A stretch of 64,000 nucleotides of DNA from Mucilaginibacter sp. MD40 (lineage in GTDB: Bacteria; Bacteroidota; Bacteroidia; Sphingobacteriales; Sphingobacteriaceae): positions 3,801,852-3,865,851 of the forward strand of contig NZ_NRSW01000001.1 of assembly GCF_002288635.1 (NCBI RefSeq). The letters are read 5' to 3'. Under the pieces are notes generated by a model that saw only the letters and a list, made by a program, of their open reading frames with translations, was not told the DNA's origin and made no database searches. Below, one piece after another: positions 28,404 through 64,000 of the stretch (position 1 is its first letter; every line of letters begins with the position of its first letter). The translations under genes and the position numbers were made by a program.

Positions 28404-29018
28404 ATGAATGCGACTTATTTGCATATCAAAAATATGTGCTGCCAAAGATGTATTGAAATAATCAGGAGGCTGTCAAAAAGCGTTAAACTTTCGGTTATTT
28501 CAATTAAACTGGGTGAACTGGTTCTTAAGGGTAAAGTCAGCAGTGAAGACAAGGATGACTTTGAAAAAAAGATTAATCAAGAAGGTTTTTATCTTTCTGA
28601 AACCCACCAGGAAAAAGTTATCGGCCATCTCAAAACGCTGCTCCTTCAGTATCGGGATGAACTGATGAAAAATGAGAAGCCGATCAAGCTGTCAGAATTT
28701 ATAGTTGGCCATATGCAAATGAGTTTTTCCCATTTAAGCAGGATTTTTTCAAAATCGGAGGGGGTAACAATTGAGAGGTACTTGTTGCTGCTGCGCTTAG
28801 AGAAGGCGAAGGAGCTGCTGATTCAAAAGCAATTATCTGTTACGGAGGTTAGCTACAAGCTGGGTTATAACAGCCCGCAATCTTTTATAACACAGTTCAG
28901 GAAAGATGTCGGGAAAACACCTCATGAGTACCAGCTAAGCCCGTTGCCGCCGAGAAATAATATTGATGCGCTGACAAATCAATATATCAAACAACAAGAG
29001 CATCCAGGCGAACAATAG
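28404..29018 (+). CDS. HMA-like/AraC fusion regulator, copy 1
   Basis: 204 residues. Residues 4-70 look like a heavy-metal-associated (HMA) domain: YLHIKNMCCQRCIEIIRRL carries the NMxCxRC metal motif (C13 and C16, with an extra C12), and the spacing of strands and helices fits beta-alpha-beta. From about 105 it is an AraC-type HTH (FIVGHMQMSFSHLSRIFSKS and VTEVSYKLGYNSPQSFITQF, ending KTPHEYQ). A metal-binding fold directly joined to an AraC output suggests a metal-sensing activator. It lies between two near-identical secreted protein genes. A second copy is at 62337 in the copper island. Confidence 0.85.
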   Translation: MNATYLHIKNMCCQRCIEIIRRLSKSVKLSVISIKLGELVLKGKVSSEDKDDFEKKINQEGFYLSETHQEKVIGHLKTLLLQYRDELMKNEKPIKLSEFIVGHMQMSFSHLSRIFSKSEGVTIERYLLLLRLEKAKELLIQKQLSVTEVSYKLGYNSPQSFITQFRKDVGKTPHEYQLSPLPPRNNIDALTNQYIKQQEHPGEQ

Positions 29019-32959: not shown

Positions 32960-32960
32960 G

Positions 32961-36135: not shown

Positions 36136-36716
36136 AATTTCAATATAATAAAATTTCATTGCAGGATATGCAAAAGCAATTGAAAGTTCGTTTGGACGCC
36201 CTCCCCGTGATCAGGTATAAGGAGATGGTATTGCACGCAGAAGCGGAAAAAGCAAAAAGAGAGATGACAGCCCTGGAAACGACCCTTTTGAATAAAATAA
36301 ACCAATACGAATATATGAATAGGCTATGGCAGGAATTTCCGCAAGATGCAGTAAGCGTGAAAGAAATTAAGACATGTCTGAAAAATATTGCCGGGGTAAA
36401 GGTGCAGCAATTCGAGGATGTCGTATTTGAAATGAAACCGCTTGTACTGTTCAATCAACCGTTTTGGGTTGCTGATGGCATTGCGCTGCTCTGCGACCTG
36501 CTGCGCCTTTCGATCGAAAAACAATTGCTGGTGATCAAAACGGAATCATTGAACACGGCCAGGAAAAAAACTACCCAGAAAGTTAACCTTTATGAAAAAG
36601 TGCAGGTACCCGGGTACCTGATCGCTATTTCAAAGATTAAAAAGTTTATGAATGATGAAGAAAGTTTGGGAAAAGCCACCCAAAAAATTATGAAGAAAAG
36701 AATTTTATCCATTTAA
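36126..36716 (+). CDS. atpD: V-type ATP synthase subunit D (central rotor)
   Basis: 196 residues, helical at both ends (MAIKFQYNKISLQDMQKQLK and MNDEESLGKATQKIMKKR) with a short middle part, as in rotor subunit D. It transmits rotation between ring and head. It starts inside the B gene and is 13 nt before the I gene. No separate subunit F gene is seen, which is common in these operons. Confidence 0.92.
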   Translation: MAIKFQYNKISLQDMQKQLKVRLDALPVIRYKEMVLHAEAEKAKREMTALETTLLNKINQYEYMNRLWQEFPQDAVSVKEIKTCLKNIAGVKVQQFEDVVFEMKPLVLFNQPFWVADGIALLCDLLRLSIEKQLLVIKTESLNTARKKTTQKVNLYEKVQVPGYLIAISKIKKFMNDEESLGKATQKIMKKRILSI

Positions 36717-36729
36717 ATAAACGGAAGCC

Positions 36730-38199: not shown

Positions 38200-38661
<462 letters not shown>

Positions 38662-38716: not shown

Positions 38717-40000
38717 ATGGTACAGGCCCTTATAAAATTTGCTTTACGAAACCGCTTTATCGTGCTACTGCTTGCAGGCGGCCTTTTTGCGTGGGGAATT
38801 TATGCCGTTACACAAAATCCCGTCGATGCCATACCGGATTTATCAGAAAACCAGGTGATCGTTTTTACCGAATGGATGGGACGCAGCCCGCAGTTGATAG
38901 AGGACCAGATCACCTATCCTTTGGTATCCAACTTACAGGGAATCCCAAATATCAAATCGGTCAGGGGTACATCCATGTTCGGCATGAGTTTCGTTTATGT
39001 CATCTTTGAAGATAACGTGGATATTTATTGGGCGCGCACCCGGGTATTGGAGCGGTTAAATTACGCGCAAAGGCTTTTGCCCCAGGGGATCACTCCCGCT
39101 TTAGGACCAGATGGAACAGGAGTAGGTCACGTCTTCTGGTATCATCTTGATGCCCCAAAAATGGATCTTGGAGAGCAGCGTGCGCTGCAGGATTGGTATA
39201 TCAAGTTCGCCTTGCAAACCGTGCCCGGCGTTTCAGAGGTGGCATCCTTCGGCGGTTTTGAAAAACAATACCAGATCATCCTGGACCCGGTAAAACTCCA
39301 GTTTTACAATATTCCCCTCATGACGGTGATGAATAAAGTACGGGCCAATAACAATGATGTCGGCGGCCGAAAGTTCGAAATGAGCGATATGGGCTATGTC
39401 ATCCGGGGCCTGGGATATATCAAGTCGAAGGAAGATGTGGAAAACATTGCTTTAGGCGAGAACAATGGGGTACCGGTCAGAATAAAAGATATCGGCAGTG
39501 TACAAATGGGCGGAGACCTGCGGCTTGGGATCGTAGACGAGAACGGTACAGGTGAAATCGTGGGAGGTATCGTGGTCATGCGGTATGGGCAAAGCGCAGA
39601 TAAGGTCATCAAGGCTGTAAAAGCCAAAATGAAGGAGGTGGAAAAAGGGCTTCCGGAAGGGGTCACGTTTAAAACTTCTTATGACCGGAGCGATCTGATA
39701 GAAGCTGCAATCAGCACCGTAACCGGAAAGTTAAAAGAAGAAATGATCGTCGTTTCCATCGTGGTGCTCATTTTTCTGTTCCATTGGCGCAGCGCGGTGA
39801 GCATTATTGTCCAGATCCCGATCACGCTTTCCATCAGTTTCATACTGCTGAATGCCTTTGGTCTGTCCTCCAATTTAATGTCCTTGACTGGTATTGCTAT
39901 CGCCATCGGTGTAATAGTAGATAACGGAATCATCATGTCCGAAAATGCCTATCGGAGGCTTTCCGAATGGCAGAATAGTGATCACCCAGAAAATATTTAA
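38717..40000 (+). CDS. cusA: CusA/CzcA-type RND metal efflux pump, N-terminal part
   Basis: 427 residues covering the first half of a heavy-metal RND pump: MVQALIKFALRNRFIVLLLA (TM1), FTEWMGRSPQLIEDQITYPL, the first periplasmic porter domain, then TM2-TM4 with SLTGIAIAIGVIVDNGIIMS (proton-relay Asp). It ends after ENAYRRLSEWQ, in the cytosolic loop before TM5. The second half begins 4 nt later in the +1 frame as a separate ATG frame. Together they make a full ~1,078-residue pump that exports Cu(I)/Ag(I) or divalent metals through the TolC-like channel encoded next. Confidence 0.9.
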   Translation: MVQALIKFALRNRFIVLLLAGGLFAWGIYAVTQNPVDAIPDLSENQVIVFTEWMGRSPQLIEDQITYPLVSNLQGIPNIKSVRGTSMFGMSFVYVIFEDNVDIYWARTRVLERLNYAQRLLPQGITPALGPDGTGVGHVFWYHLDAPKMDLGEQRALQDWYIKFALQTVPGVSEVASFGGFEKQYQIILDPVKLQFYNIPLMTVMNKVRANNNDVGGRKFEMSDMGYVIRGLGYIKSKEDVENIALGENNGVPVRIKDIGSVQMGGDLRLGIVDENGTGEIVGGIVVMRYGQSADKVIKAVKAKMKEVEKGLPEGVTFKTSYDRSDLIEAAISTVTGKLKEEMIVVSIVVLIFLFHWRSAVSIIVQIPITLSISFILLNAFGLSSNLMSLTGIAIAIGVIVDNGIIMSENAYRRLSEWQNSDHPENI

Positions 40001-40004
40001 CGTT

Positions 40005-41957
40005 ATGAAATTCATCATCAAATTAAAGGAATTTTTTAAGAAAAAGAAACCGTCTTACCGGGTGATCCCGGAAGATATCCGGATGAAGCTGGTGGAATCT
40101 TCGTGCATACAGGTGTCAAGAGGGGTGTTTTTTTCAACCGTGATCATTATCGTATCATTTATGCCGGTATTTCTTTTAACCGGACAGGAAGGGAAATTAT
40201 TCCACCCGCTGGCCTATACGAAAACGTTTATCCTGGCAGTAGATGCCATATTAGTGGTAACACTGGCCCCGGTGCTGATTTCCTTTTTCATGAAAGGAAA
40301 GTTTTTGCCTGAAAATGTTAACCCCGTAAACCGCGTGCTTGAACGGATTTATGAACCGATGATCAGGGCATGTATCAAAAGAAGAAAAATCACTATCGGG
40401 ATAAATATAATTGCGTTACTCATCAGCATTCCCCTGGTGATGAGTTTGGGCCGGGAATTTATGCCCCCGCTGGATGAAGGCACCCTTTTGTTCATGCCGG
40501 TCATGATGCCGGACGTATCCAATTCAGAAGCCAAAAGGTTATTGCAGGTGCAGGATAAGATCATCGCGTCTGTGCCGGAGGTAACGCATGTGATGGGAAA
40601 AGCGGGAAGGGCCTATACGGCTACCGATAACTCGCCAATCAGCATGATAGAAACCATCATCATGCTAAAGCCAAGGGATCAGTGGAGAAAAGGTTTTACA
40701 AAAGACAGTATCATTAATGAATTGAATAAAAAACTCCAGATTCCAGGCGTGATCAACGGATGGACCCAGCCGATCATCAACCGGATCAACATGCTTTCAA
40801 CGGGTATCCGAACAGACGTTGGAATAAAAGTGTTTGGTCAGAATTTGGATACGATCTATTCCTTTTCCCAAAAGGTAGAGAAGGCGCTGGAAGGAACACC
40901 CGGTATAAAAGACCTGTATGTCGAGCCTATCACCGGCGGGAAATATATAGATATCATTGTAAAACGGCAGGAAATTGGGCGCTATGGACTAAGTATAGAT
41001 GACGTAAATGCCGTAGTGGAAAGCGCCCTTGGCGGGATGCAGCTTACAACAACCATAGAGGGACGCCAGCGTTTTTCGGTAAACGCCCGTTTTGCTCAAA
41101 ATTTCAGAGATAATATTCAATCCCTAAAAAGATTGCAGGTGCAAACCATGAGCTACGGCCCGATCCCATTGGAAGCTGTGGCGAACGTGAAAATAAGCGA
41201 AGGGCCGCCGATGATCAACTCTGAGAATGCCATGCTGCGCGGAACCGTCCTTTTTAACGTAAGGGAAAGAGACCTGGCAAGCACAGTAGAAGAAGCGCAA
41301 AAGAAATTAAATTCAATGATCAGCAAAATGCCGAAAGGTTATTACCTGACCTGGAGCGGAAATTATGAGAACCTGATACGTGGCGAAAAAACCTTGAAAA
41401 TCATCATGCCGGTTGTAATAGTGGTCATTTTCATGTTCATGTATTTCGCATTCAATTCCATGCGGGAATCCTTTTTAAGCTTGATCACGATCCCATTTGC
41501 GCTTATTGGCGGGGCCTATATCGTTTACTTCTGGGGAGTGAATATTTCTATTGCCGTCGCCGTAGGATTCATTGCATTGTTCGGATTAGCCGTGGAGACG
41601 AATATTGTGATGGTTATTTACCTCAATGATGCCATGTTGCAATTAGTTGCGAAAAAGGGGAATTCGAGTGATACCATTACGAGGGATGAGCTGAAGGAAT
41701 ATGTGATAGCCGGGGCTGCTAAGAGGTTAAGGCCAAAGCTGATGACCGTTAGTGTATCCCTATTTGGCCTGGTGCCCATACTCTGGAGTACGGGCGTAGG
41801 AAGTGATGTGATGATACCTATCGTGTTGCCTATGATAGGCGGTGTACTGACTTCTTCAACGTTTATCCTGCTGGTAACGCCGCTGATCTTCCTGATGAAC
41901 AAGGAACACGAATTAAAAAAACACGGGAAAATAGAAGTAATGGAAACGCATCACTAA
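40005..41957 (+). CDS. cusA: CusA/CzcA-type RND metal efflux pump, C-terminal part
   Basis: The ATG at 40005 gives 650 residues; the frame is open back to 39945. After a basic leader (MKFIIKLKEFFKKKKPSYRV) it resumes the RND sequence at VESSCIQVSRGVFFSTVIII (TM5), the second porter domain, and TM helices with FGLAVETNIVMVIYL and AAKRLRPKLMTVSVS (relay Glu and Lys). The break lies exactly in the TM4-TM5 cytosolic loop, so two chains could assemble. Alternatively a single frameshift (real or in the assembly) has split one gene. Stop and start are 4 nt apart, which looks like a designed junction. Confidence 0.9.
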   Translation: MKFIIKLKEFFKKKKPSYRVIPEDIRMKLVESSCIQVSRGVFFSTVIIIVSFMPVFLLTGQEGKLFHPLAYTKTFILAVDAILVVTLAPVLISFFMKGKFLPENVNPVNRVLERIYEPMIRACIKRRKITIGINIIALLISIPLVMSLGREFMPPLDEGTLLFMPVMMPDVSNSEAKRLLQVQDKIIASVPEVTHVMGKAGRAYTATDNSPISMIETIIMLKPRDQWRKGFTKDSIINELNKKLQIPGVINGWTQPIINRINMLSTGIRTDVGIKVFGQNLDTIYSFSQKVEKALEGTPGIKDLYVEPITGGKYIDIIVKRQEIGRYGLSIDDVNAVVESALGGMQLTTTIEGRQRFSVNARFAQNFRDNIQSLKRLQVQTMSYGPIPLEAVANVKISEGPPMINSENAMLRGTVLFNVRERDLASTVEEAQKKLNSMISKMPKGYYLTWSGNYENLIRGEKTLKIIMPVVIVVIFMFMYFAFNSMRESFLSLITIPFALIGGAYIVYFWGVNISIAVAVGFIALFGLAVETNIVMVIYLNDAMLQLVAKKGNSSDTITRDELKEYVIAGAAKRLRPKLMTVSVSLFGLVPILWSTGVGSDVMIPIVLPMIGGVLTSSTFILLVTPLIFLMNKEHELKKHGKIEVMETHH

Positions 41958-52235: not shown

Positions 52236-52913
52236 CTAACCCTTTTTATAAGCCATGATGATTTGTACCTCCCCAAAGAATGTCTTAAAATGCTCACTGA
52301 TCGTAATCTTGTTAAATCCTGCCTCATTAATTAACCCCGGAAGTAGCCCTTTGGCGTTAGCTTCCGTTGATTCAAACCCGTCAAGGGTCCTGATCATGTT
52401 AAATTTAAACCTTTGCCAGGCAGATGCTGAACGGCCAAAATCAGCTATGATCAGCTGCCCGCCGCTTTTTAAGATGCGATAGATTTCTTTTAGGATGACT
52501 GATTTTTGTGAACTATAAATATGATGAAATACGAGACAGGACACTACAATGTCAAAAGAAGCATCCTTAAATGGAAGTCTTTCCCCGTTATACCTGATCA
52601 GGTTAATATCGGCCATGGTGTTGCTCCTTCTCTCCTTAGCCCTGTTGAGAATGTCTATATCCACGTCAACACCCGAAATATTGGCTAAAGGATGGGCAGT
52701 TTTCAACATTATGGTAAGCGTCCCCGAACCGCAACCAAAGTCGAGAATGTCTGACGGCGTTGATACTTTTATTTCGCTGATCAAAGCCGTTTTGATGGTT
52801 TCCTCCGGCATCGTAACCTTTAGTAAACGATCATAAAACGGGGTTAACCAATTAAAGCTCAAGGCGGGAATAAATTTCGGTGCGGCTGGTGTATTGCTCA
52901 TCTTTTTATTCAT
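52236..52913 (-). CDS. Class I SAM-dependent methyltransferase
   Basis: 225 residues with the motif I region DILDFGCGSGTLTIML, VDVDIDILNRAKERR and the VSCLVFHHIYSSQKSV and LIIADFGRSA segments of the UbiE-like fold. Target unknown. The start codon overlaps the stop of the multicopper oxidase by 1 nt (TAATG), so translation is probably coupled; an in-frame ATG four codons later is also possible. A methyltransferase tied to copper oxidase expression is unusual. Confidence 0.9.
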   Translation of the reverse strand: MNKKMSNTPAAPKFIPALSFNWLTPFYDRLLKVTMPEETIKTALISEIKVSTPSDILDFGCGSGTLTIMLKTAHPLANISGVDVDIDILNRAKERRSNTMADINLIRYNGERLPFKDASFDIVVSCLVFHHIYSSQKSVILKEIYRILKSGGQLIIADFGRSASAWQRFKFNMIRTLDGFESTEANAKGLLPGLINEAGFNKITISEHFKTFFGEVQIIMAYKKG

Positions 52914-55525
52914 TAATAGGTGATTGTTAAACCCGCACCTGCTCCCATATCACTATCGTAATGCGTTGAAAAGGAGAAATACTTAGTAACAATATACCGC
53001 AGCCCGGCAGCATATTCCTTGTCGGTATTGATCATGATGTTAAAGCGAAGGCGTTGCATCAGGGGGATGTCTTCGCGGCCTAACTGAAAACGCAGTTTAC
53101 CGTTCGCGTCAATGCGCATATCAGCTACAAATAACATCGGCAGCGTATAGGCCAGGCCCGCAACCACTGTATGACGGTTTTCTTTGTTGCTGACCTGCCC
53201 GAAGAGGTTTTTGTAATCGCTGCCAAAAATATTCTTCTCATCAGGATTGAATTTTTTATAATGATAGTCAAAGCCCACGTAGGGGAACAGCCATTGGTTC
53301 CTGCCAATATATCGGCCGACCGTTGTTTCGCTTTCGTACCCCATCATGGCATCCGTACCCAGGTGCCACATGGTAGTTGCTTTCCAGCGGGTACTGCCCA
53401 GCATCAACTGCCCGTCTGTTCCATTGCTTTCCAAACCGATCTTTCCCATCAGGTGCGGCATCTGGTCGTCCCAGAATAAACGGCGCTGTGCAAACTCCGG
53501 ATCGGGAACATCCGGGTTGGGCAGGGAGTCACTGTAACTGAATATGCGGCCCATTCCGCTCATCATATGGTAAAGGATATGGCAGTGAAAGAACCAGTCG
53601 CCCCCCGGTTCGTTAGCCGCGAATTCAATGGTGTCCCTTTCCATGGGCATAATGTCGATCACATTTTTCATCGGGGCGTTCTCACCCTGCCCGTTCAGCA
53701 CGCGGAAGTCGTGCCCGTGCAAGTGCATCGGGTGCCGCATCATACTATTATTATATAGGATGATCCGCAGGTTCTCCCCTTTTTTGATCAGGATCTTATC
53801 CGACTCGGAAACGGTTTTGTTATCCAGCGTCCAAACGTAACGGTTCATATTGCCCGTCAGGTCGAACTTCAGCTCCTTCCACGGGCCGTTTGGTAATATT
53901 GTCTTGTTCGGGTCACGCAGCATGCTGTAATTAAGGGTGACCAGGTCTGCATTGTCCGTATCCATATTCATGCCTGACATACTTTTATCAGTCGGTTGTT
54001 GCACGGCCGGCATAGCTTGCTGTTCCTTTTTGGCGGGTTTTTCTTCACCGGTTATCTCCGGGTACATCACGGTATTCATATCCATGGTCTGGTTCTGCAT
54101 TTTCATGCCGTCCATTTCAACCATATTGCCATTCATGTCCATCATGTCGTTCATCATTTTCATCCCGGCGAAATACTTCAGCTTCGGCATCTTACCGGCA
54201 TAAACCTTATCACCCGTACCCAGCCAAAGTGATGCGGACCGGGTCCGGTCCTCAGGTGTCACCAGGAACTCATAACTCTTATCCTCGGGCAACGTCACCA
54301 CCACATCGTAAGTTTCCGAAACGGCCACAATGAGCCGGTCGACTTCGACGGGTACCACATCATTGCCATCCGTCGCGACCACGGTCATTTTACCGCCCGC
54401 ATACTTGAGCCAGAAATAGGAGGATGCGCCGGCGTTGGCGATTCGCAGTCTTACCTTATCACCCGCCTTAAATTGCGGTTGCTCAAGCTGGTTTTTCCCG
54501 TTGATCAGGAACTGATCATAGTAAACGTCGCTGACATCCATCGCATTCATTCGCTTCCATTCATTGCCTACCTTAGTTTTAAAATGACCGCTTTGGATGG
54601 CCTCCAGGTAACTTTGGGTTGTACCCTTTTTAATAGCGAACCAATCCGTGGCTGCATGCAGGCTGCGCTGTACCTCTTTGGGGTTCATATTGGTCCATTC
54701 ACTTAAAACGAGCGGAATGGTCGGGATATCCCATTCCTGCCGTTTGTTCATGATAAAAGCGCCGTACATACCGATTTGTTCCTGTAAGCCGGTATGGCTG
54801 TGATACCAGTGCGTACCATGCTGTTTGATCGGGAACCTGTAAAGATGAGTGGCGCCTGGCTTGATAGGCATTTGCGTCAGGTTCGGAACGCCGTCATAAC
54901 GGTTAGGCAGGAACAGCCCATGCCAGTGCAGGGAAGTCTCTTCTTTAAGTTTGTTGTGCACATAGATCTCCGCTGTATCGCCTTCGGTAAATGTTAGTGT
55001 GGGCATAGGGATACTACCATTGACCGCGATGGCCCTTTTCGGTTTTCCGCCGTAGGTCACCGTCGTGTCAGCAATATACAGATCGTAACGCACCGTACGC
55101 GGAGGAAATTTGGCTGCGACTGTTTTAATAGGTTCCAATTGGGCCTTCGCTGCCGGGCCTGCTGGCATACTACCCATATCATCCATTTTTCCGTCCTGTT
55201 TCGTGCTGTCCGTCACCGGCATCTTCATACCCTCCGGCATTTTCTTGATATTTGGCTGCTCTTTGACCATCTTCATGTCTCTTCCCATCACGGGCATGTT
55301 CCTGGTGGCCGCTTTTTCAGGAGCGGTCTTTGGCTTTTCTTTAACCAGCTTCATACCGCATTTAGGGCAATTCCCCGGTTTGGTAGCGTGTATCTCCGGG
55401 TGCATGGGGCAGGTATAAGTAATTGGCTGCTGTTTTTGCATACCGGCCATGGTTTGCATGTCGCTTTGCGCAAAGGCTATCTGTTTCAGGCAAAGTATCA
55501 ACACCGCAATTAGTATTTTTTTCAT
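52913..55525 (-). CDS. Multicopper oxidase with N-terminal metal-binding domain and C-terminal CopB-like barrel
   Basis: 870 residues, signal peptide about 1-19. Order: heavy-metal-binding domain (about 38-66; YTCPMHPEIHATKPGNCPKC), a Met-rich linker, three cupredoxin domains with copper ligands HWHGLFLP, THWYHSHTGLQ, MRHPMHLHGHDF and WFFHCHILYHMMSGMG, with a Met-rich patch in between (MMNDMMDMNGNMVEMDGMKM), then from about 690 a CopB-like outer-membrane-type region with alternating strands. PcoA/CopA and PcoB/CopB are normally separate proteins, so this is a fusion. It likely oxidises Cu(I) at the outer membrane. Confidence 0.92.
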   Translation of the reverse strand: MKKILIAVLILCLKQIAFAQSDMQTMAGMQKQQPITYTCPMHPEIHATKPGNCPKCGMKLVKEKPKTAPEKAATRNMPVMGRDMKMVKEQPNIKKMPEGMKMPVTDSTKQDGKMDDMGSMPAGPAAKAQLEPIKTVAAKFPPRTVRYDLYIADTTVTYGGKPKRAIAVNGSIPMPTLTFTEGDTAEIYVHNKLKEETSLHWHGLFLPNRYDGVPNLTQMPIKPGATHLYRFPIKQHGTHWYHSHTGLQEQIGMYGAFIMNKRQEWDIPTIPLVLSEWTNMNPKEVQRSLHAATDWFAIKKGTTQSYLEAIQSGHFKTKVGNEWKRMNAMDVSDVYYDQFLINGKNQLEQPQFKAGDKVRLRIANAGASSYFWLKYAGGKMTVVATDGNDVVPVEVDRLIVAVSETYDVVVTLPEDKSYEFLVTPEDRTRSASLWLGTGDKVYAGKMPKLKYFAGMKMMNDMMDMNGNMVEMDGMKMQNQTMDMNTVMYPEITGEEKPAKKEQQAMPAVQQPTDKSMSGMNMDTDNADLVTLNYSMLRDPNKTILPNGPWKELKFDLTGNMNRYVWTLDNKTVSESDKILIKKGENLRIILYNNSMMRHPMHLHGHDFRVLNGQGENAPMKNVIDIMPMERDTIEFAANEPGGDWFFHCHILYHMMSGMGRIFSYSDSLPNPDVPDPEFAQRRLFWDDQMPHLMGKIGLESNGTDGQLMLGSTRWKATTMWHLGTDAMMGYESETTVGRYIGRNQWLFPYVGFDYHYKKFNPDEKNIFGSDYKNLFGQVSNKENRHTVVAGLAYTLPMLFVADMRIDANGKLRFQLGREDIPLMQRLRFNIMINTDKEYAAGLRYIVTKYFSFSTHYDSDMGAGAGLTITY

Positions 55526-55535
55526 TTTTATTTTT

Positions 55536-55991
55536 CTACAGGCTATCCGACGTTTGTTTAACCCAGTTCATTAATTGTGTCTTTTCCGTTTGGGAAAGTA
55601 TCGTATTACGGTGCAGTAGTGTGTAGGAAGACAGCGGCATAGACCCTTCTTCCAGGCTTTGACCGATCGCACGCAGTTTGCTTCGTTGCTTTCGTGCCGT
55701 ATAGGTTCCGAAAGTATTGAAGTTCAGTTCGGCCTTACCATTCCTGACATGACGATCCATCATTAGCCTCACCGGCTGCAGGCGGGCATACCAGGGGTAA
55801 TCGGTTTGGTCGCTGTGGCAGTCATAACAGGATCTTTTCAGGATCACGCTCACATTCGCTGGGATCTTATACACCCGGTCGATCGCATTGACAGGCGTGT
55901 TACCCGCCTCATTATGGTCACGCGGGATGAACTGAAGGGCGATCAGCACCAATGCGACTATACCCAGAAAAGGTTTTAACAAGCGCTTCAT
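55536..55991 (-). CDS. Haem-binding domain protein (Haem_bd type)
   Basis: 151 residues with an N-terminal membrane or signal segment (about 8-22). The single c-type haem site is CYDCHSDQTDYPWYARLQPV, the hallmark of the Haem_bd family. It probably acts as an electron carrier in the periplasm, perhaps with the oxidase encoded 10 nt downstream. Confidence 0.9.
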   Translation of the reverse strand: MKRLLKPFLGIVALVLIALQFIPRDHNEAGNTPVNAIDRVYKIPANVSVILKRSCYDCHSDQTDYPWYARLQPVRLMMDRHVRNGKAELNFNTFGTYTARKQRSKLRAIGQSLEEGSMPLSSYTLLHRNTILSQTEKTQLMNWVKQTSDSL

Positions 55992-55994
55992 GCC

Positions 55995-56579
55995 TTATTT
56001 GATTTCTTCTTTAATAGAACCGCAGGTCGGCATTTGAGCACCCAGGTATGGGTTTTTGATCGCTTCGGTTTCGCTCAGCCAGTTAGCCCCTTTGTTATGG
56101 TTATACATCGGGCAATGATCAACGTATAAGGGTTGTCCGGCGCCAAGTAGTTTAACCAGGTCGACCATATCCTGGCTCAGCATCTCGAAATGCTCCCGCT
56201 GATGGGGTAAATTCCCGGCGCTTTTACCAATATGTTCAGCCATTTCTTTGGCATCACCTTCGATGTCAGCAAAAGATTTCTTTTGAGCTGCGTTCAAAGC
56301 GGTTTGATCAAATTTTTCGAAGCCTTGTGCAAGCGCTTTACCGGCCGTTGCCGCCTGGTTGCTGTTATCGGCGGCGAGCGCATTTTTTAGTTGCAGGTAA
56401 TTGTCCAAAAGACCTTTTACCGCTGTTGCAGAGGGGCCTTCAGCGGCCGGGTTTTTTGTCGCGGAAGCCGTCCCGGTGGAATCAGCAGACGTAGTGGTAG
56501 CAGATTTATTGGCATTATTGCAGGCCAGCACGGTTAACGTGGTTGCCACAAATGCAGCTATAATGATCAGATTTTTCAT
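55995..56579 (-). CDS. DUF3347 lipoprotein, copy 1
   Basis: The ATG at 56579 (MKNLIIIAAFVATTL) gives 194 residues with lipobox TVLAC. The DUF3347 domain has VKGLLDNYLQLKNALAADNS at its start and HCPMYNHNKGANWLS and NPYLGAQMPTCG at its end; the His/Cys/Met residues there resemble a copper site. Similar domains are found fused to CusB. It is 3 nt before the haem protein gene. Confidence 0.88.
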   Translation of the reverse strand: MKNLIIIAAFVATTLTVLACNNANKSATTTSADSTGTASATKNPAAEGPSATAVKGLLDNYLQLKNALAADNSNQAATAGKALAQGFEKFDQTALNAAQKKSFADIEGDAKEMAEHIGKSAGNLPHQREHFEMLSQDMVDLVKLLGAGQPLYVDHCPMYNHNKGANWLSETEAIKNPYLGAQMPTCGSIKEEIK

Positions 56580-56658
56580 AACGGAAAATTTAAGGCAAAG
56601 GGATAACCCTGCCAAACGAAGCCTGTTCGCTGGCAGGGTTGTTCATTTTTGTCGGAAA

Positions 56659-57159
56659 TTATTTATTCAGGGTTTCGCTCACCTTGCCGCAGGTCAGCAT
56701 CTGGCTGCCGTAATACGGGTTTTTGATCGGCGCTTCTGCTGATAACCAGTAACTCTTTTTCATCGGGCAGTAGTCATAATAAACAGCCTCGCCGGTCAGT
56801 TTGACCGCTTTGGCCAGTTTAAAGAAATTAGCGGATAAATCTCCAAAATGCTCCCTTTGGTGGGCGATATCCTTGCTTTCAGCGATATGCCTGGCATCGA
56901 ATGCCAGTTTCTCCTGCAATGGCATAAAAGCATTCATATCAGCCGCGGGCAATGATTTCATGTTCACGGCGCTCAGTAGTTTGCCGAATTCGGCAGCACT
57001 GGCCGCTGCATCCTGGTTGCTGGAAGCAACAAGCGCGTTCTTTAAGCTGTAATAAGAGGTCAGTAGTGGTGTCAACGGGGTAGCCTTACCATCCTGCGCG
57101 AAAATTTGTTGGGTAAATACGGTCACGATCAGCGTAACCATTAAAAATATTTTTTTCAT
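56659..57159 (-). CDS. DUF3347 secreted protein, copy 2
   Basis: 166 residues, signal peptide (about 1-21, IFAQD). It shares LLTSYYSLKNALVASSNQDA and the end block YYDYCPMKKSYWLSAEAPIK with NPYYGSQMLTCG. A paralogue of the gene 79 nt downstream, but soluble instead of lipid-anchored. Probably binds copper in the periplasm. Confidence 0.87.
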   Translation of the reverse strand: MKKIFLMVTLIVTVFTQQIFAQDGKATPLTPLLTSYYSLKNALVASSNQDAAASAAEFGKLLSAVNMKSLPAADMNAFMPLQEKLAFDARHIAESKDIAHQREHFGDLSANFFKLAKAVKLTGEAVYYDYCPMKKSYWLSAEAPIKNPYYGSQMLTCGKVSETLNK

Positions 57160-57235: not shown

Positions 57236-57646
57236 TCAGATCAGGAAACTCCGTATGGCGACCCGGATATCTTTGTCCGGCGGCCGCTTTTTCTCCCGCG
57301 TAACCTTCAGTTTGGCTACATAAAGATTGGTTGTTGAAATAAGAAAAAAATCAATGGGCTTGCTGAGGAAAGTAAACGAAGCAAGCGGTAAGAGATGATT
57401 GCCTGCCGGTACTTGTTTGGCCAGGGAAGTAAAGTTATTCACGGCACCCTGGCAGCAGGGTTCGTTTGGCGATTGTATGGCGCTGCGGGCTATTTGATCG
57501 TGAGTAACGGATCCGGTGGTGTGCCGATGTTCGTGATGCCCTGTCAGCTCGTGATCATCCTCATGCATCATATGCAAAGCGCAGCAGAACCCGGTGACCG
57601 TGTTCAGGAGGAATACAACCAGCAATATCAGCGCTTTACCTTTCAT
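57236..57646 (-). CDS. HYC_CC_PP-like His/Cys-rich secreted protein, copy 2
   Basis: 136 residues with a signal peptide (about 1-20). It has FCCALHMMHEDDHELTGHHE (metal-binding potential), a central NEPCCQGAV and a late KKRPPDKD then SFLI end, as in the other two copies. The ATG is only 7 nt after a TTTG promoter element, so the message may be leaderless. It heads the operon with the DUF3347, haem and oxidase genes. Confidence 0.7.
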   Translation of the reverse strand: MKGKALILLVVFLLNTVTGFCCALHMMHEDDHELTGHHEHRHTTGSVTHDQIARSAIQSPNEPCCQGAVNNFTSLAKQVPAGNHLLPLASFTFLSKPIDFFLISTTNLYVAKLKVTREKKRPPDKDIRVAIRSFLI

Positions 57647-57653
57647 TAGGATA

Positions 57654-57696
57654 CAAACTTAAAAATTAACGCGGCGGCAGATTTATATAATTCCGT
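57654..57696 (-). promoter_or_regulatory. Promoter with shared copper-gene architecture, copy 1
   Basis: On the minus strand, ACGGAAT (57696-57690) is followed 39 nt later (start to start) by TTTGTATCCTAA (57657-57646), within TAAGTTTG (57661-57654), a full -7 consensus match. The CopA promoter at 59161-59211 has the same two words at the same spacing, plus TnTAAAnnTG between them. Confidence 0.65.
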
Positions 57697-57725
57697 CATT
57701 TTTTTATATTTTGACGTGAAAGTTT

Positions 57726-58976
57726 TCAAATAGCCGTCCTTGCGATTTTCTGCATAATCGCATGGTCATCGCCAAATTTGCAAAGTGCATCACAATGCTG
57801 CCGCAAGTCTGAAAAGCAGATGTATTTCATTTCCATATTTCCCTGCCGGATCGATGGCCTGGTAAGCTGCATGATGACATCTTTCTCGCGCTGATCGGGA
57901 ACCACCAGGTAAAGTACTTCTTCCTTATTATTTAAGCTACAGCTCAGATCGGTTAACCGCAGGATGCCGGAATAGATACTGGTGCTTTTTTCTACTTCAA
58001 ACGCCGCGATCACTTTTGACGTGGCTTTTTGAAACCAGAGTACATCGATCAGCTTTACGGTATTCAGTACTTCCTTGTCTAAGTCCATCTGCGGAAAATC
58101 AGCCAGGGAAATAAAGCTGAACTTATTTCCGGCCCAGCCTTTGGAGCGGTCGTTAGATGCGGCGATCACGTCATAGCCGAGGGAATGCCCGATCTTTAGC
58201 AAATGATACTGCATTTCATTATGTAGCTGTTCATCCGCAGTTTCCGTACTTTTTTCCTTGTGGCGCTTTTCGATAAGTTTTTCCAGCCGGTTCCGCTCCG
58301 TCTCTGACAAGTATTCATCCTTACCTAAAAGCAACTTTTGGGTACCGATCTCGAAAAGCAGGCCCGCAAAAGCGCCGGTATCCAGGGAAAGTTCATTACA
58401 GTGCTTTCGGTTGGTGTCCATAATAACCTCCCTGATCTTCAGATATTCGCTCCAGCTGCCTAACTTTTTCTTATCCTTAAACAGGTAATTAAATCCATTG
58501 ATGATCGCGGTATTAAACGGCGGTATCCAGGTCGGGTGCAGAAAATACAGGATACTTGCCACGGCCGGGCCAAGGCCCTTTATTTTGAGTGCGTCCAGTT
58601 TTTCGATCTCTTTGATCACCTGTTCTTCATTTTTGGCATGGATACAGTTCTCCAGGAACTGCCCGAATGCGATCTTGTTCGCCTGGTTCTCATAAATGTC
58701 CGGAATCCTTAATTTGGGCTTCCAGTAAAACGGATGGGATGCGCCCTCAAATACCTGTTTTTGTTCTGTGATGCAGGAAAGCACGAATTCAAGCGACGTG
58801 CCTTTAAAGTCATTGCCGAAACGTTTGGTCTTGATATCATCGATTACCTGCAGTACCCCCCTGCGGATCGAACGAAAAGCTTTTAAACGTTCTTCATTGT
58901 TAATGAACCAGGTATTATATACCGATTCCTGGTCATTCTTGTATTGATCGATGATGGATTGTAAGTGTTCGCTCAT
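57726..58976 (-). CDS. HhH-type plus PD-(D/E)XK-like nuclease protein
   Basis: The ATG at 58976 (MSEHLQSIIDQYKN) gives 416 residues; the frame is open to 59027. The first half has an HhH-like hairpin (LKIKGLGPAVASILYFLHPT) of the kind seen in DNA glycosylases. The second half has a likely PD-(D/E)XK core: KLIDVLWFQKATSKVIAAFE and then VEKST, with later CKFGDDHAIMQKIA. Together they suggest a DNA-cutting or repair enzyme. No methylase or partner gene is near. It stands between the copper promoters, transcribed on its own on the minus strand. Confidence 0.6.
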   Translation of the reverse strand: MSEHLQSIIDQYKNDQESVYNTWFINNEERLKAFRSIRRGVLQVIDDIKTKRFGNDFKGTSLEFVLSCITEQKQVFEGASHPFYWKPKLRIPDIYENQANKIAFGQFLENCIHAKNEEQVIKEIEKLDALKIKGLGPAVASILYFLHPTWIPPFNTAIINGFNYLFKDKKKLGSWSEYLKIREVIMDTNRKHCNELSLDTGAFAGLLFEIGTQKLLLGKDEYLSETERNRLEKLIEKRHKEKSTETADEQLHNEMQYHLLKIGHSLGYDVIAASNDRSKGWAGNKFSFISLADFPQMDLDKEVLNTVKLIDVLWFQKATSKVIAAFEVEKSTSIYSGILRLTDLSCSLNNKEEVLYLVVPDQREKDVIMQLTRPSIRQGNMEMKYICFSDLRQHCDALCKFGDDHAIMQKIARTAI

Positions 58977-59160
58977 TGCGGATAAAATTAGGTGCCGGCG
59001 TAAAACGCGTGCCCCTAAATTAAGCAAGTTTAAATAGATAATAACAATGGGTCTGAAATAACCCTTGCTTTAAGATTCTCTTATCGCCAGGATCCTTACG
59101 GGTGATTTCTGCTGCCAGTTCCTGTTTCGGGACCACTTGGCGGTATTTTATAAAAGTTTA

Positions 59161-59211
59161 ACGGAATCCTGTAAAGATGCGGCTGAGCGTTAGGCTAACT
59201 TTGTATCCTAA
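59161..59211 (+). promoter_or_regulatory. CopA promoter with shared copper-gene architecture, copy 2
   Basis: ACGGAAT (59161-59167) and TTTGTATCCTAA (59200-59211) are 39 nt apart, exactly as in the minus-strand promoter at 57646-57696. TAACTTTG (59196-59203) is a perfect TAnnTTTG -7 element. The ATG follows at 59223. Confidence 0.65.
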
Positions 59212-59222
59212 ACAGAGAAAGA

Positions 59223-61457
59223 ATGTCACCTGCAACCATATACACCCAGACTTTTCCGGTTACCGGCATGACTTGCGCCGGCTGCGCATCAAGCGTTGAA
59301 TCGATGATCGGCGCCCAAAAAGGTGTTGAAAAAGCTGAAGTTAATTTTGCCACCCAGTCCGTAAAGGTAGCTTACCACCCGGATCTCATCCGGCCGGAAG
59401 GCTTACAGCGATCCGTACAGTCGGTTGGTTACGACCTGATCATTGACACGGAAAATGGAAAAGAAAAAGGTGAACAGGCACAGCTGGCCCACTACCGTGA
59501 GCTGAAGAAAAATATCATTTGGGCCGCTGTCCTTACCCTGCCGGTTGTCATGATCGGGATGTTTTTGATGGACATTCCTTATGCCAATTATATCATGCTG
59601 GTGCTGACCGCCCCTGTGCTGTTCATCGCGGGCAGGAATTTTTTTACCGGTGCCTGGAAACAGGCACGGCACGGCAGGGCAAACATGGATACGCTGGTGG
59701 CGATGAGTACCGGGATCGCTTTTTTCTTCAGCGTGTTCAATACCGTCTATCCGGAGTTCTGGCACCGGCAGGGCTTACATCCGCACGTTTATTACGAGGC
59801 GGCATCGGTGGTGATCGTATTTATCATGCTGGGAAAATTGCTGGAAGAGCGGGCGAAATCCAACACCTCTTCCGCTATCAAAAAGTTGATCGGCCTACAG
59901 CCGAAAACCGTATTGCTCATAACGCCCCAGGGAGAAAAAATCACGCCTGTTGAGGAGGTGAAGATCGGCGACCTGCTGTTGGTTCGTCCGGGCGAAAAAA
60001 TTCCGGTGGATGGCATCGTAACGCAAGGCGGCTCCTACGTGGATGAGAGCATGATCAGCGGCGAGCCTGTGGCCGTAGAAAAAAAGAAGGGCGACAACAT
60101 TTTTGCCGGAACGATCAACCAGAAAGGCAGTTTTCAATTTCAAGCCGAGAAGGTCGGCGGTGAAACCCTGTTGGGTCAGATCATCCGCCTGGTAGAGGAA
60201 GCGCAGGGATCGAAAGCACCCGTTCAGAAACTGGTCGATAAAATTGCCGGTGTATTTGTCCCGGTGGTGCTGCTGATCGCGCTGGCGACTTTAGGCATCT
60301 GGCTGTTGCTCGGCGGCCCGCAGGCGCTGACACATGGACTTTTAGCCATGGTGACCGTTCTGGTCATTGCCTGTCCCTGCGCACTGGGGCTGGCCACACC
60401 TACCGCCGTCATGGTCGGTATCGGAAAAGGAGCTGAGAATGGCATCCTGATCAAGGATGCCGAAGCGCTGGAATTGGGATACAAGGTCAACGCGGTCATC
60501 TTTGATAAGACCGGAACGATCACCGAGGGTAAACCTGCGGTCACCGATATCGTCTGGGCCAATCAGGCCGCAGGCGGGGAACAGGCATTATCGGCGATAC
60601 TGTTGGCACTGGAACAGCAGTCAGAACATCCCTTAGCGGCCGCTATCGTCAGCTACCTGAAAGAAAGGGATATACAAAGCGTGGAATCGGACTATTTCCA
60701 CAGCCTGACCGGCCGGGGTGTCGAGATCCTGTTTAACGGCCAGCCCTATTATGCCGGTAACCTTAAACTGGTCGAAAGCAGTAAGACGCCACTTCCGGGT
60801 GAACTCGCTTTTGCGGCAGCCCAGCTTTCACAGGCCGGAAAAACCGTGATCTATTTTGCCTCACACCTTTCTGTATTGGCTATAGTGGCTTTGCAGGACC
60901 GCGTCAAGCATAATTCGGCAAAAGCCATTTCAGCGCTAAAGACCAGCGGTATCGAGGTCTATATGCTGACCGGTGACCAGGCGGTCACGGCGGCCCATAT
61001 TGGCCGGGAAGCCGGGATCAGTCATATCATTGCCGATGCGCTGCCCGCTGACAAAGCCACTTTTGTTAAGACCTTGCAAAGCCGGGGAAATATTGTAGCT
61101 ATGGTTGGGGACGGCATCAATGATAGCCAGGCGCTGGCGCGGGCAGACCTCTCCATCGCCATGGGTCACGGCTCGGATATCGCCATGGACGTGGCTAAGA
61201 TCACGCTGGTATCATCGGACCTGCTTCAACTGCCTAAAGCCCTTAAACTGTCCCGGCTGACTGTAAGAACGATCCGGCAAAACCTGTTCTGGGCTTTCAT
61301 CTATAACCTGATCGGCATACCGCTGGCTGCCGGTATCCTATACCCGGTGAATGGATTTTTACTAAACCCGATGATCGCCGGGGCGGCCATGGCGCTAAGC
61401 TCGGTGTCAGTCGTCAGCAACAGCCTGCGGCTTAAATATTCAAAAATTACTTTTTAA
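59223..61457 (+). CDS. copA: CopA-type Cu(I) P1B ATPase
   Basis: 744 residues with one N-terminal HMA domain ([18 protein letters not shown]), the CPC transport motif ([15 protein letters not shown]), [30 protein letters not shown] and [16 protein letters not shown]. It exports Cu(I) from the cytosol. A CopZ-like chaperone follows after 14 nt. It differs from the CopB pump at 46058 in motif and N-terminus, so the island has both P1B-1 and P1B-3 pumps. Confidence 0.97.
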
Positions 61458-61471
61458 TTAAAAACAGAAAA

Positions 61472-61684
61472 ATGGAAACTTTAAAATTCAAGACCACCAT
61501 CAAATGCGGTGGCTGCATAGCAACGGTTACCCCCGTCCTCGATCATTTAAACGGGGTAGAAAAATGGGAAGTGGATACCGTAAACCCCGATAAGATACTC
61601 ACGATAAAGGCAACTCCTGATTTGGAGGCAAAGGAGGTGATCGCCGCATTGGCAGCCAGGGGATACCATGCGGAATCCATATAA
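61472..61684 (+). CDS. CopZ-like copper chaperone (HMA domain)
   Basis: 70 residues, a single HMA domain. The metal motif is IKCGGCIATV (CGGC), then a typical beta-alpha-beta-beta-alpha-beta order (GVEKWEVDTV, AKEVIAALAARGYHAE). It delivers Cu(I) to CopA. It ends before a hairpin at 61701-61730, so copA and this gene form a unit. Confidence 0.92.
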   Translation: METLKFKTTIKCGGCIATVTPVLDHLNGVEKWEVDTVNPDKILTIKATPDLEAKEVIAALAARGYHAESI

Positions 61685-61794: not shown

Positions 61795-62268
61795 ATGAGA
61801 AGATTCGGTGCTTTTACGCTGGCTGCGTTTTACCTGTTGTTGACAACAGGTATGTTCGTATGCCTGGTACATTGCGGCGCCGAATATTTTTTTGGAACAC
61901 CCGGGCATGAATTAGTCGTTCATGAGGATGGTGACGATGATGATCACGACCATGATGCCGCGCCATCTGCCGGACATGATGATGAGCACGAAAAGGAAAA
62001 ATCACAGCACCATAAGAAATCCTGCGGGGAAGGCAAAGATTGCAGTTGCTGTAACCGGCACGACAACTATGTGGTTAAAGAAAACACTTCCGGATCACTC
62101 GAATTTCAATCGTTCGCCATCCAGGTCATCCTGTTCCCATTACCTTACCAGGCATTGCCACCAATGCCCGGCATTTACGAAGCCAAAGTATCCTGGCTTA
62201 ACGCAACCGGACCGCCTGGGGCGGTCAGACCACCGCTATTTATTAAATACCGATCCCTTCTGATCTGA
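61795..62268 (+). CDS. HYC_CC_PP-like His/Asp-rich secreted protein, copy 3
   Basis: 157 residues, signal or anchor about 1-24, LVHCGAEYF, then a very His/Asp-rich stretch (about 42-70, including DGDDDDHDHD and GHDDEHEKEK), a DCSCC motif and the late VRPPLF with SLLI end. The acidic His-rich stretch should bind Cu(II), Ni or Zn ions. It is followed after 68 nt by the second HMA-AraC gene, repeating the regulator/HYC neighbourhood seen at 27-29 kb. Confidence 0.7.
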   Translation: MRRFGAFTLAAFYLLLTTGMFVCLVHCGAEYFFGTPGHELVVHEDGDDDDHDHDAAPSAGHDDEHEKEKSQHHKKSCGEGKDCSCCNRHDNYVVKENTSGSLEFQSFAIQVILFPLPYQALPPMPGIYEAKVSWLNATGPPGAVRPPLFIKYRSLLI

Positions 62269-62336: not shown

Positions 62337-62900
62337 ATGACATTATATATTAAAAATATGGTTTGCGACCGCTGCATTATGGTCGTTAAACAACAACTGG
62401 AAAACTTAGGGTTCCGGGTCGATTCCATTGCGCTGGGTAGCGCCGTTGTTCAGCCAGAAGCGGATGCCAACCAATTAAGCGCCATTTCTTCCGCATTAAA
62501 ACTGCTCGGCTTTGAGCTGATCGATAATGAAAAGGACCGTGTGGTACAACGCATTAAGGACCTGATCATTGAAAAGGTACATCACAGCGACCTATCGGAC
62601 AGCCACCTCAGCTTTTCGGACTACCTGTCTGATCAGCTGCATAAGGATTATACTTATCTCAGCCGGATGTTCTCAGAGTCGGAAGATACCACTATTGAAA
62701 AATTCATTATTCAGCAAAAGATAGAAAAGGTCAAAGAACTGCTGGAGTACGGCGAACTCAATATGAACGAGATCGCCTGGAAGATGGGCTATAGCAGTAG
62801 CGCTCATCTGTCCGCGCAGTTCAAAACGATAACCGGGTTAACGCCAAGCCAGTTCAAAGCATCAGGGCACAGGCAGCGTAAAGCCATTGACAAAATTTAA
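62337..62900 (+). CDS. HMA-like/AraC fusion regulator, copy 2
   Basis: 187 residues. An HMA-like N-terminus (MTLYIKNMVCDRCIMVVKQQ; metal Cys10 and Cys13) leads to an AraC HTH from about 88 (LSDQLHKDYTYLSRMFSESE and MNEIAWKMGYSSSAHLSAQF, ending GLTPSQFK). It shares the layout and length of the copy at 28404. It sits in the copper island between a His-rich secreted protein and a Met-rich outer-membrane-type gene, so it is the most likely copper-responsive activator here. Sensing copper through CxxC is an inference. Confidence 0.87.
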   Translation: MTLYIKNMVCDRCIMVVKQQLENLGFRVDSIALGSAVVQPEADANQLSAISSALKLLGFELIDNEKDRVVQRIKDLIIEKVHHSDLSDSHLSFSDYLSDQLHKDYTYLSRMFSESEDTTIEKFIIQQKIEKVKELLEYGELNMNEIAWKMGYSSSAHLSAQFKTITGLTPSQFKASGHRQRKAIDKI

Positions 62901-62913
62901 AATCTATCATCCT

Positions 62914-64000
62914 ATGAAAAACTTAATGATTACCGCAGCCCTGCTTTTAGGGCTCACATCTATCGCATTCGCTCAAACCATGAAGATGAACGATACAACG
63001 AATGCCAAAAAAGATAAAAAAATGGACATGCCGATGAAGCATGACGGGATGAAGGGCATGAAAATGCCGGACACCGCCAAAAAGGTAAAAGGCAAAAAAA
63101 TGGGTATGCCGATGAACCATGACCATATGAAAGGCATGAAGATGAAAGATACTTCCATGTCGGGCATGGATATGGGCGGAATGAAAATGGATGATATGCC
63201 CATGAAAATGATGAGCAGTTCACAATCGCTTAATTTGCCCATGACGCGGGACGGCTCCGGCACCAGCTGGCTGCCGGATGCTTCGCCGATGTATGGCATC
63301 ATGTTGGGCAGCGGCAAATGGAGCTATATGCTGCATGGCAATATCGCCCTGCGTTATACCAAACAAGACCTTGGCAATAAGGGCAGCAGGGGCGACGACA
63401 GGATCGATGCCCCCAACTGGTTCATGGGCATGGCTCAGCGTAAGGTTGGCACAAACGGCCTGCTGCATTTTAACCTGATGATGTCCCTCGACCGCCTGAC
63501 GGAAGGCGGCGGCGGCTATCCGCTCCTGTTCCAGACAGGTGAAAGCTGGAAAGGTTCTCCGCTGATCGATCATCAGCATCCGCATGATCTTTTTTCCGAA
63601 GTATCGGCGAGCTATGCCTATGCCTTTTCCAAAAAGACCGACCTGAGTATTTATGTAGGCTACCCCGGCGAGCCGGCGTTAGGCCCGGTGGCTTTTATGC
63701 ACCGGCCCTCGGCGATGTCCGATCCGGATGCGCCGATCAGCCACCATTGGTCTGATGCGACGCATATCACTTTCGGGGTCGCGACCATCGGTTTTCGGTT
63801 CTATGATTTCAAGATCGAGGCCTCGTCTTTTACAGGCAGGGAACCTGATGAGAACCGTTATGACTTTGACAAGCCGCGATTTGATTCCTGGAGCGGGCGT
63901 TTAAATTATAATCCTTCAGCCAATTGGGCGCTGCAAGTTTCACATGGCTATATCAAGAGCCCGGAGGAGCTGCACCCGGAGGAAAATGTTTATCGTACTA
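62914..64000 (+). CDS. Met/His-rich secreted beta-barrel-type protein, 3' end outside window
   Basis: The frame from ATG 62914 stays open to the window end (362 complete codons). Signal peptide about 1-20 (SIAFAQ). Residues about 22-110 are extremely rich in Met, Lys and Asp with repeated MxMP, HDGMKGMKM and MSGMDMGGMKM motifs. After that the sequence changes to alternating aromatic strands of an outer-membrane barrel type (MLHGNIALRYTKQDLGNKG, HHWSDATHITFGV). Such a Met-rich arm suggests Cu(I) capture outside the cell or in the periplasm. The end of the gene, and so its full domain set, is not seen. Confidence 0.8.
   Translation, partial: MKNLMITAALLLGLTSIAFAQTMKMNDTTNAKKDKKMDMPMKHDGMKGMKMPDTAKKVKGKKMGMPMNHDHMKGMKMKDTSMSGMDMGGMKMDDMPMKMMSSSQSLNLPMTRDGSGTSWLPDASPMYGIMLGSGKWSYMLHGNIALRYTKQDLGNKGSRGDDRIDAPNWFMGMAQRKVGTNGLLHFNLMMSLDRLTEGGGGYPLLFQTGESWKGSPLIDHQHPHDLFSEVSASYAYAFSKKTDLSIYVGYPGEPALGPVAFMHRPSAMSDPDAPISHHWSDATHITFGVATIGFRFYDFKIEASSFTGREPDENRYDFDKPRFDSWSGRLNYNPSANWALQVSHGYIKSPEELHPEENVYRT

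Follow-up and report, generated by a model that had tools for sequence, protein, structure and literature searches.

Gene Organization at the Locus

The right end of the window (the whole stretch of 64,000 nucleotides of DNA that was analysed) harbors a cluster of copper-related genes, with the putative regulator considered here among them. The genome comprises 4.28 Mb in two contigs, and its nearest relatives are other Mucilaginibacter (89% identity to L010). The features of this cluster are as follows:

52913..55525, − strand: multicopper oxidase containing an HMBD and stretches rich in Met
55536..55991, − strand: haem-binding domain protein (E 9.9e-43)
55995..56615, − strand: DUF3347 lipoprotein-like protein (E 6.5e-23)
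56659..57159, − strand: DUF3347 protein (E 2.3e-22)
57236..57646, − strand: small secreted-looking protein with His and Cys residues; heads the oxidase operon
59223..61457, + strand: copA, P1B-type ATPase, 744 aa (ORF, Pfam)
61472..61684, + strand: CopZ-like protein of 70 aa, a small HMA protein (30.2 bits with Pfam HMA, which exceeds the cut-off)
61795..62268, + strand: His/Asp-rich, Cys-containing secreted-looking protein, 157 aa (from sequence; no confident family)
62337..62900, + strand: HMA-AraC regulator, 187 aa (ORF, Pfam, family profile, predicted structure, fold alignment)
62337..62528, + strand: HMA-fold domain of the regulator, residues 1–64 (CopZ/ATP7B profile match; fold Z 7.0–7.8 over residues 1–64/65)
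62358..62375, + strand: metal-site motif M8-V-C10-D-R-C13 (pattern match, 0 mismatches)
62529..62870, + strand: AraC-type DNA-binding domain, about residues 65–178 (HTH_18, HTH_AraC; fold alignment)
62914..64000, + strand: Met-rich envelope protein, running past the window end (ORF end about 64410)

The regulator gene occupies exactly the coordinates given in an earlier note on this DNA, and all the neighbors named there (the His/Asp-rich protein, the Met-rich gene, copA and the CopZ-like gene) are in place, although the description of the Met-rich protein as a barrel found no counterpart among the Pfam families. The oxidase operon (57646 down to 52913, − strand) begins 1.6 kb ahead of copA. 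Elsewhere in the genome, a second cassette at C1:4.12 Mb carries copA, a CopZ-like gene, a secreted protein, another HMA-AraC gene, a multicopper oxidase, DUF305 and DUF326, and a second run of secreted protein/DUF3347/DUF3347 is located at C1:4.097 Mb.

Several other peculiarities of these neighborhoods deserve mention. The small secreted-looking His/Cys-rich proteins (57236–57646, 61795–62268 and L185:1035–1463), which belong to no confident family and head several operator-bearing operons (see below), may be periplasmic copper binders. A protein of about 416–433 aa (57726–59027 in the window and L185:1555–2805) adjoins the secreted-protein/DUF3347 operon in both copies and has a nearly identical start in the two; the window protein has no Pfam match and looks to have been carried along by duplication. 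The CusA-like RND pump at 38717–41957 is split into two overlapping frames (38717–40000 and 39945–41957), Pfam ACR_tran in the first piece reaching no further than position 418 of 1021; the split is a frameshift, either of the genome itself or of its assembly. Judging from the translations, a V/A-type ATPase-like operon (31489–38661) lies between the CusA-like genes and the region of a diverged HMA-AraC relative.

Domain Architecture of the HMA-AraC Protein

The two-domain layout proposed in the earlier note, an HMA-like N-terminus followed by an AraC-type C-terminus, was recovered by the family profile and in the predicted structure, and it recurs in 193 of the 392 sampled Bacteroidota genomes (family profile, E up to 1e-25). 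The C-terminal domain is readily recognized by Pfam HTH_18 (E 9.6e-17, 61.5 bits vs. a cut-off of 33.6) and HTH_AraC (34.2 bits vs. 26.6). The N-terminal domain scores 12.9 bits (E 0.15) with Pfam HMA (PF00403), short of the curated 24.8; hence, it is referred to as HMA-like. A profile built from 36 relatives (alignment A1) and compared with the PDB retrieved AraC-type domains together with the metal-binding domains of CopZ and ATP7B, the latter over about residues 2–62.

The AlphaFold2 model inferred from the same alignment (mean pLDDT 89.1, pTM 0.78) displays the order beta-alpha-beta-beta-alpha-beta in its first 61 residues (strand 2–6, helix 11–23, strands 27–32 and 35–39, helix 44–56, short strand 60–61), followed by helices. 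Residues 1–64 of the model align structurally with GolB (Z 7.8), Atx1 (7.7) and CopZ (7.4); according to the warning of the tool, Z values below 8 may reflect a common fold arrangement, and the sequence profile agrees with the HMA fold. The rest of the model superimposes on the DNA-binding domains of AraT, MarA, SoxS and AraC with Z of 10–11.7. The metal-binding loop of the MxCxxC type is present as M8-V-C10-D-R-C13 and represents a candidate Cu(I) site. Within the 36-row alignment, M8, C10, R12 and C13 are invariant, an invariance biased by the retrieval of most rows with a pattern containing MVCD.

Signatures of the better-known copper sensor types were also looked for in this protein. The best 25 of its 35 NCBIfam matches are AraC-type regulators and include no MerR-type family, and neither the CsoR domain (PF02583) nor a BlaI-type winged-helix domain (CopY type) is among its Pfam matches.

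The Candidate Operator and Its Geometry

A repeated TRTAA at a distance of 21 bp was first noticed upstream of copA in Mucilaginibacter and Pedobacter. A motif search near the HMA-AraC genes of related genomes, as suggested in the earlier note, recovered TRTAA-N16-TRTAA at copA promoters; in other genera, the pair is situated ahead of copA or in the gap just 3′ of a regulator gene which precedes copA. The candidate operator is composed of two direct TRTAA half-sites with a 21-bp period (spacer N16) and a TAnnTTTG box 47–49 bp from the first half-site. Among 89 copA upstream regions, TRTAA-N16-TRTAA is present on the sense strand in 48 and on the opposite strand in one, and each of the other spacers from 4 to 31 is found in 0–9 of the 89 on the sense strand. 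Random stretches drawn from these loci, true sites included, show the N16 pair in 68 of 3000 cases on the sense strand and in 14 on the opposite strand.

Alignment of 72 promoter-proximal sites refined the pattern to AAWnnTRTAA, present twice, with TAnnTTTG 48 bp from the first half-site. The box, which played no part in choosing these sites, is well conserved among them, with A at +49 in 62 sites and T at +52 and at +53 in 67 sites each. TAnnTTTG is the −7 box known from Bacteroidota promoters, so the second half-site would occupy the position of the −33 element.

Two such sites are located in the window:

59149..59203, + strand: candidate operator-promoter of copA (TATAA 59149–59153, TGTAA 59170–59174, −7 box TAACTTTG 59196–59203)
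57654..57708, − strand: candidate operator-promoter of the DUF3347/multicopper-oxidase operon (TATAA 57708–57704, TATAA 57687–57683, −7 box 57661–57654)

These are the sole sites of the window with a correctly placed −7 box, and they belong to the promoters of copA and of the oxidase operon, i.e., the very targets which the earlier note had expected. Genome-wide (4.28 Mb), the full pattern TRTAA-N16-TRTAA-N21-TAnnTTTG has four exact matches, with none added at one mismatch; the reversed-pattern control gives five matches at up to one mismatch. All four are copper promoters, namely those of copA, of the DUF3347/oxidase operon, of the second-cassette copA and of the second DUF3347 run.

Several less stringent candidates were considered and rejected. 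The half-site pair alone is uninformative in the window, where it has 16 matches at one mismatch vs. 19.2 expected from shuffles. A looser genome scan of half-site pairs produced eight matches vs. five for the reversed pattern: the four copper promoters and four chance-like sites, the latter showing no fitting −7 box where the sequence around them was inspected. Lengthening the spacer of the full pattern by one base yielded five one-mismatch sites, none of them at the four copper promoters (control, 2). An exact half-site pair at 33561 falls within a gene and below the matrix list, and a weak matrix match at 22760 (14.5, threshold 13.7) lies over the gene 21406–23058 and has no −7 box.

Operator Occurrence and Presence of the Regulator

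The association of the site with the regulator was assessed with a matrix derived from 44 sites of the loci L009–L089 and the window, its threshold being set at the 99th percentile of reversed and opposite-strand controls; copA was accepted in the strict CPCA-LFM-GLATPTA form. In the held-out loci (L121–L180, i.e., those unused for the matrix, with the same species possibly occurring in both collections), 21 of the 30 copA genes near the regulator pass the matrix and 18 of the 30 do so with a −7 box. Accordingly, the operator is lacking in 9/30, and the operator with the −7 box in 12/30 (9/30 on a 930-nt search). In genomes without a detected HMA-AraC, 2 of 18 copA genes pass and just one has the −7 box (1/18 vs. 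18/30, Fisher p 1.8e-4), this single case being L194. When copA is distant from a regulator present in the same genome, operator and −7 box are found in 5/10 (p 0.013), a count obtained after excluding L209 (no site) and L228 (site), both of which contain the regulator; the earlier counts were 6/12 and 7/13. The CcoI-like ATPases pass in 3/16 cases (2/6 adjacent, 1/7 distal, and 0/2 and 0/1 in the remaining groups).

Loci totalling 1.61 Mb, when scanned for the operator with the −7 box, yielded 119 matches, vs. 0 in the reversed control. The next gene is copA after 66 of them, a CopZ-like or other small HMA protein after 15, a small His/Cys secreted-looking protein after 13 and a full-length HMA-AraC after 7. 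The remainder is made up of CusB-like, DUF3347 and DUF326 genes (once each), 12 other genes and three matches without a gene.

Copies of the Regulator in the Genome

The genome carries three HMA-AraC-like genes, at 62337–62900, at C1:4115684–4116244 and at 28404–29018. The C1:4115684–4116244 copy is outside the window, in the second copA cassette, and is 60% identical to that at 62337–62900. The remaining one is the following:

28404..29018, + strand: very diverged HMA-AraC relative, 204 aa, with NMCCQRC

This copy is 28–29% identical to the 62337–62900 protein and sits on a very long branch of the tree (3.33); no HMA domain is found in it by Pfam at E up to 0.1. No operator above the matrix threshold was found at its neighbors, nor at the CusA, CusB and CopB-like genes, and the gene probably serves a different regulon. 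The description of the 62337–62900 gene in the earlier note as a second copy is correct for the window, and the genome has a third. The related idea of comparing the target sets of the two window copies needs a similar correction, since the 28404–29018 gene is no simple sister; the informative pair is formed by the 62337–62900 gene and the copy of the second cassette.

The diverged gene is flanked by two closely similar secreted-looking proteins (27812–28399 and 29079–29669), and the region is preceded by a HYC_CC_PP family protein (27176–27571). In two other Mucilaginibacter loci (L025 and L026), a common-type HMA-AraC with an operator is ahead of a related HYC-type gene.

Distribution Across Bacteroidota

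Members of the family were detected in 95 of 105 genomes of the window's own class or closer, and copA is present in 357 of all 392 sampled Bacteroidota genomes. CsoR (PF02583) occurs in 93/392 genomes; it is found together with HMA-AraC in nine vs. 46 expected. A single family, f18, accounts for most of the CsoR genomes (67 of the 93), so the genomes behind this exclusion are not independent. The Mucilaginibacter genome itself contains no CsoR, and no CueR (TIGR02044) over the cut-off, the best score there being 23.4 bits vs. 147.4, at another gene. Matches to HMA-AraC were also present in 31 plasmid records, and most of the plasmid records listed give it no more specific name than AraC family regulator.

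Linkage to copA and the SxxC Clade

Linkage of the regulator to copA was estimated in a phylum sample of 60 genomes, with genera mostly represented once; from each genome a region of about 10 kb surrounding one member was taken, and these regions contain 66 full-length members. Of the 58 CxxC members, 38 have a P1B-1-type ATPase within 5 kb (34/54 of the common type and 4/4 of the IKGMVCxRC type), for 32 of those 38 within 1 kb on the same strand, and copA is absent from this distance for the other 20/58; the ATPase pattern also admits CcoI-like ATPases, so these copA counts may be slightly high. In a similarity-retrieved set of 80 loci, 54 of 79 common-type members have the ATPase no more than 5 kb away; the retrieval patterns of this set included the cysteine motif, which makes it uninformative on motif conservation. 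The linkage counts rest on 150 full-length rows, two of which are the same window gene from overlapping stretches.

Eight members bear Y-M/L-V-S-x-R-C in place of the CxxC motif, and none of them has copA within 5 kb (0/8 vs. 38/58, Fisher p 5e-4). All eight belong to a single clade, nested within the HMA-AraC tree, and therefore represent one evolutionary contrast. Since L132 and L135, which are sister branches of the clade, keep CxxC and have no copA, the loss of copA linkage may precede the loss of the first cysteine. SxxC paralogues (YMVSxRC) of L146, L152, L155, L163, L170 and L176 are found near stress or signalling genes, the neighbors of SxxC members including a Dps-like ferritin and a PAS histidine kinase. 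Operator-type sites are present at two SxxC loci, ahead of the regulator's own gene in L152 and ahead of the preceding gene in L146.

Proposed Mechanism and Alternative Explanations

Collectively, these observations suggest, with high probability, that the protein encoded at 62337–62900 is a cytosolic one-component Cu(I) sensor which activates copA, its own gene and the oxidase operon via the direct-repeat operator. Cu(I), probably passed on by the CopZ-like chaperone, would bind to the CxxC (C10/C13) of the HMA-like domain, and the AraC domains of two copies would be placed side by side on the direct repeats AAWnnTRTAA, whose 21-bp period corresponds to two helical turns. The bound regulator is expected to recruit RNA polymerase to a promoter which has a good −7 box and no normal −33 element. 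That the bound form activates is suggested by the downstream half-site replacing the −33 element, as is the case in AraC-type class II activators. Since copA, the CopZ-like gene and the regulator share an operon, turning on copA would also turn on the regulator's own gene, i.e., the switch would boost itself in a positive feedback. Further targets would comprise the DUF3347/multicopper-oxidase operon and the two matching operons elsewhere in the genome. Copper-loaded chaperones are known to form dimers bridged by copper; in a similar way, copper may bridge the two HMA domains and so set the dimer, or rearrange it.

Other explanations were weighed against this one. The repeats could be bound by another regulator, e.g., a two-component system of the CusRS/CopRS type or an uncharacterised DNA-binding protein, with HMA-AraC merely traveling with copA. 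Such a possibility is favored by a 2023 survey of marine bacteria, the pertinent part of which gives only two-component and ECF homologs for its Bacteroidota representatives (PMC10141476). It is at odds with the occurrence of the site at non-adjacent copA genes sharing a genome with the regulator (5/10, vs. 1/18 in genomes devoid of it) and directly upstream of some regulator genes (7 of the 119 matches). Moreover, direct-repeat half-sites at 21 bp are typical of AraC-family dimers, as exemplified by araI1/I2, and involvement of a different DNA-binding protein appears quite improbable to us. It is also conceivable that HMA-AraC is a repressor which leaves the DNA, or admits the polymerase, upon metal binding, following the logic of CsoR and CopY: known copper sensors, those of the MerR group aside, are mostly repressors, and the position of the distal half-site, if taken alone, is compatible with repression. 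Still, the geometry is that of AraC-type class II activators, with the downstream half-site standing in for the −33 element at a constant distance from the −7 box, and the closest folds are those of AraC-type activators such as MarA and SoxS, so repression is regarded as a very unlikely mode of action.

The nature of the ligand has to be considered as well. Another soft metal (Ag, Au, Zn, Cd or Hg) could take the place of copper, or the two cysteines could constitute a redox switch, a view encouraged by the HMA folds binding Au (GolB) and Hg (MerP), both present in the fold list, and by the existence of the SxxC clade near stress genes. However, the targets are copper genes (the P1B-1 ATPase, the CopZ-like protein, the multicopper oxidase and DUF326), a ZntA-like ATPase adjoins one member only in the phylum sample (L126), and the clade devoid of CxxC is never found near copA; hence, a ligand other than Cu(I) is rated as unlikely.

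In a broader perspective, the Cu(I)-sensing activator proposed here might exemplify an undescribed family of copper sensors, a metallochaperone–AraC fusion on which much of Bacteroidota would rely for its principal copper switch in the cytosol, instead of on CueR, CsoR or CopY. The dimer would assemble on the 21-bp repeats through copper bound between a pair of HMA domains, and a single nested clade would have given up the first copper cysteine, parted from copA and been rewired to stress or signalling genes, in some loci retaining the same type of DNA site. On this generalization, our opinion is evenly balanced. Bacteroidota of gut, oral, soil and marine habitats have so far been lacking an obvious one-component copper sensor. 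With a defined sensor and operator, the copper regulon of many of them would become predictable from sequence, and a compact copper-inducible promoter would be at hand for genetics. The CxxC, SxxC and diverged copies, in turn, represent a natural series on how a metallochaperone becomes a transcription factor.

Comparison with Known Copper Sensors and AraC-Type Regulators

No description of an HMA-AraC copper regulator was found in the open-licence full-text literature, and it may have been described elsewhere. Apart from the marine survey cited above, the pertinent part of a 2025 review on gut metals names CueRS/CusRS, CsoR and CopY and no sensor from Bacteroidota (PMC12574912). The novelty would reside in an AraC-family one-component regulator with a new putative sensor and a defined candidate operator.

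As in other members of the AraC/XylS family (AraC, MarA, SoxS, Rns), the C-terminal DNA-binding domain of HMA-AraC contains two helix-turn-helix units; instead of a cupin or another ligand pocket, it is combined with a 64-residue HMA-fold sensor with CxxC, for a total of about 187 aa. With the metallochaperones CopZ, Atx1 and GolB it shares the fold, the MxCxxC motif and the copper-operon context. It differs from them in its IKNMVCxRC signature, in scoring below the Pfam cut-off and in being permanently fused to a DNA-binding domain.

Among the copper sensors proper, CueR of the MerR family is likewise a Cu(I)-responsive activator of copA, a likeness which hinges on the activation proposed above for HMA-AraC; the fold and the operator are unrelated, CueR activating through a palindrome in an overlong spacer. 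CsoR and CopY also control copA-copZ operons, but with folds and logic different from those of HMA-AraC. At the same time, CopZ hands copper over to CopY, which offers a possible parallel for the transfer of copper from the CopZ-like protein to the HMA-AraC regulator.
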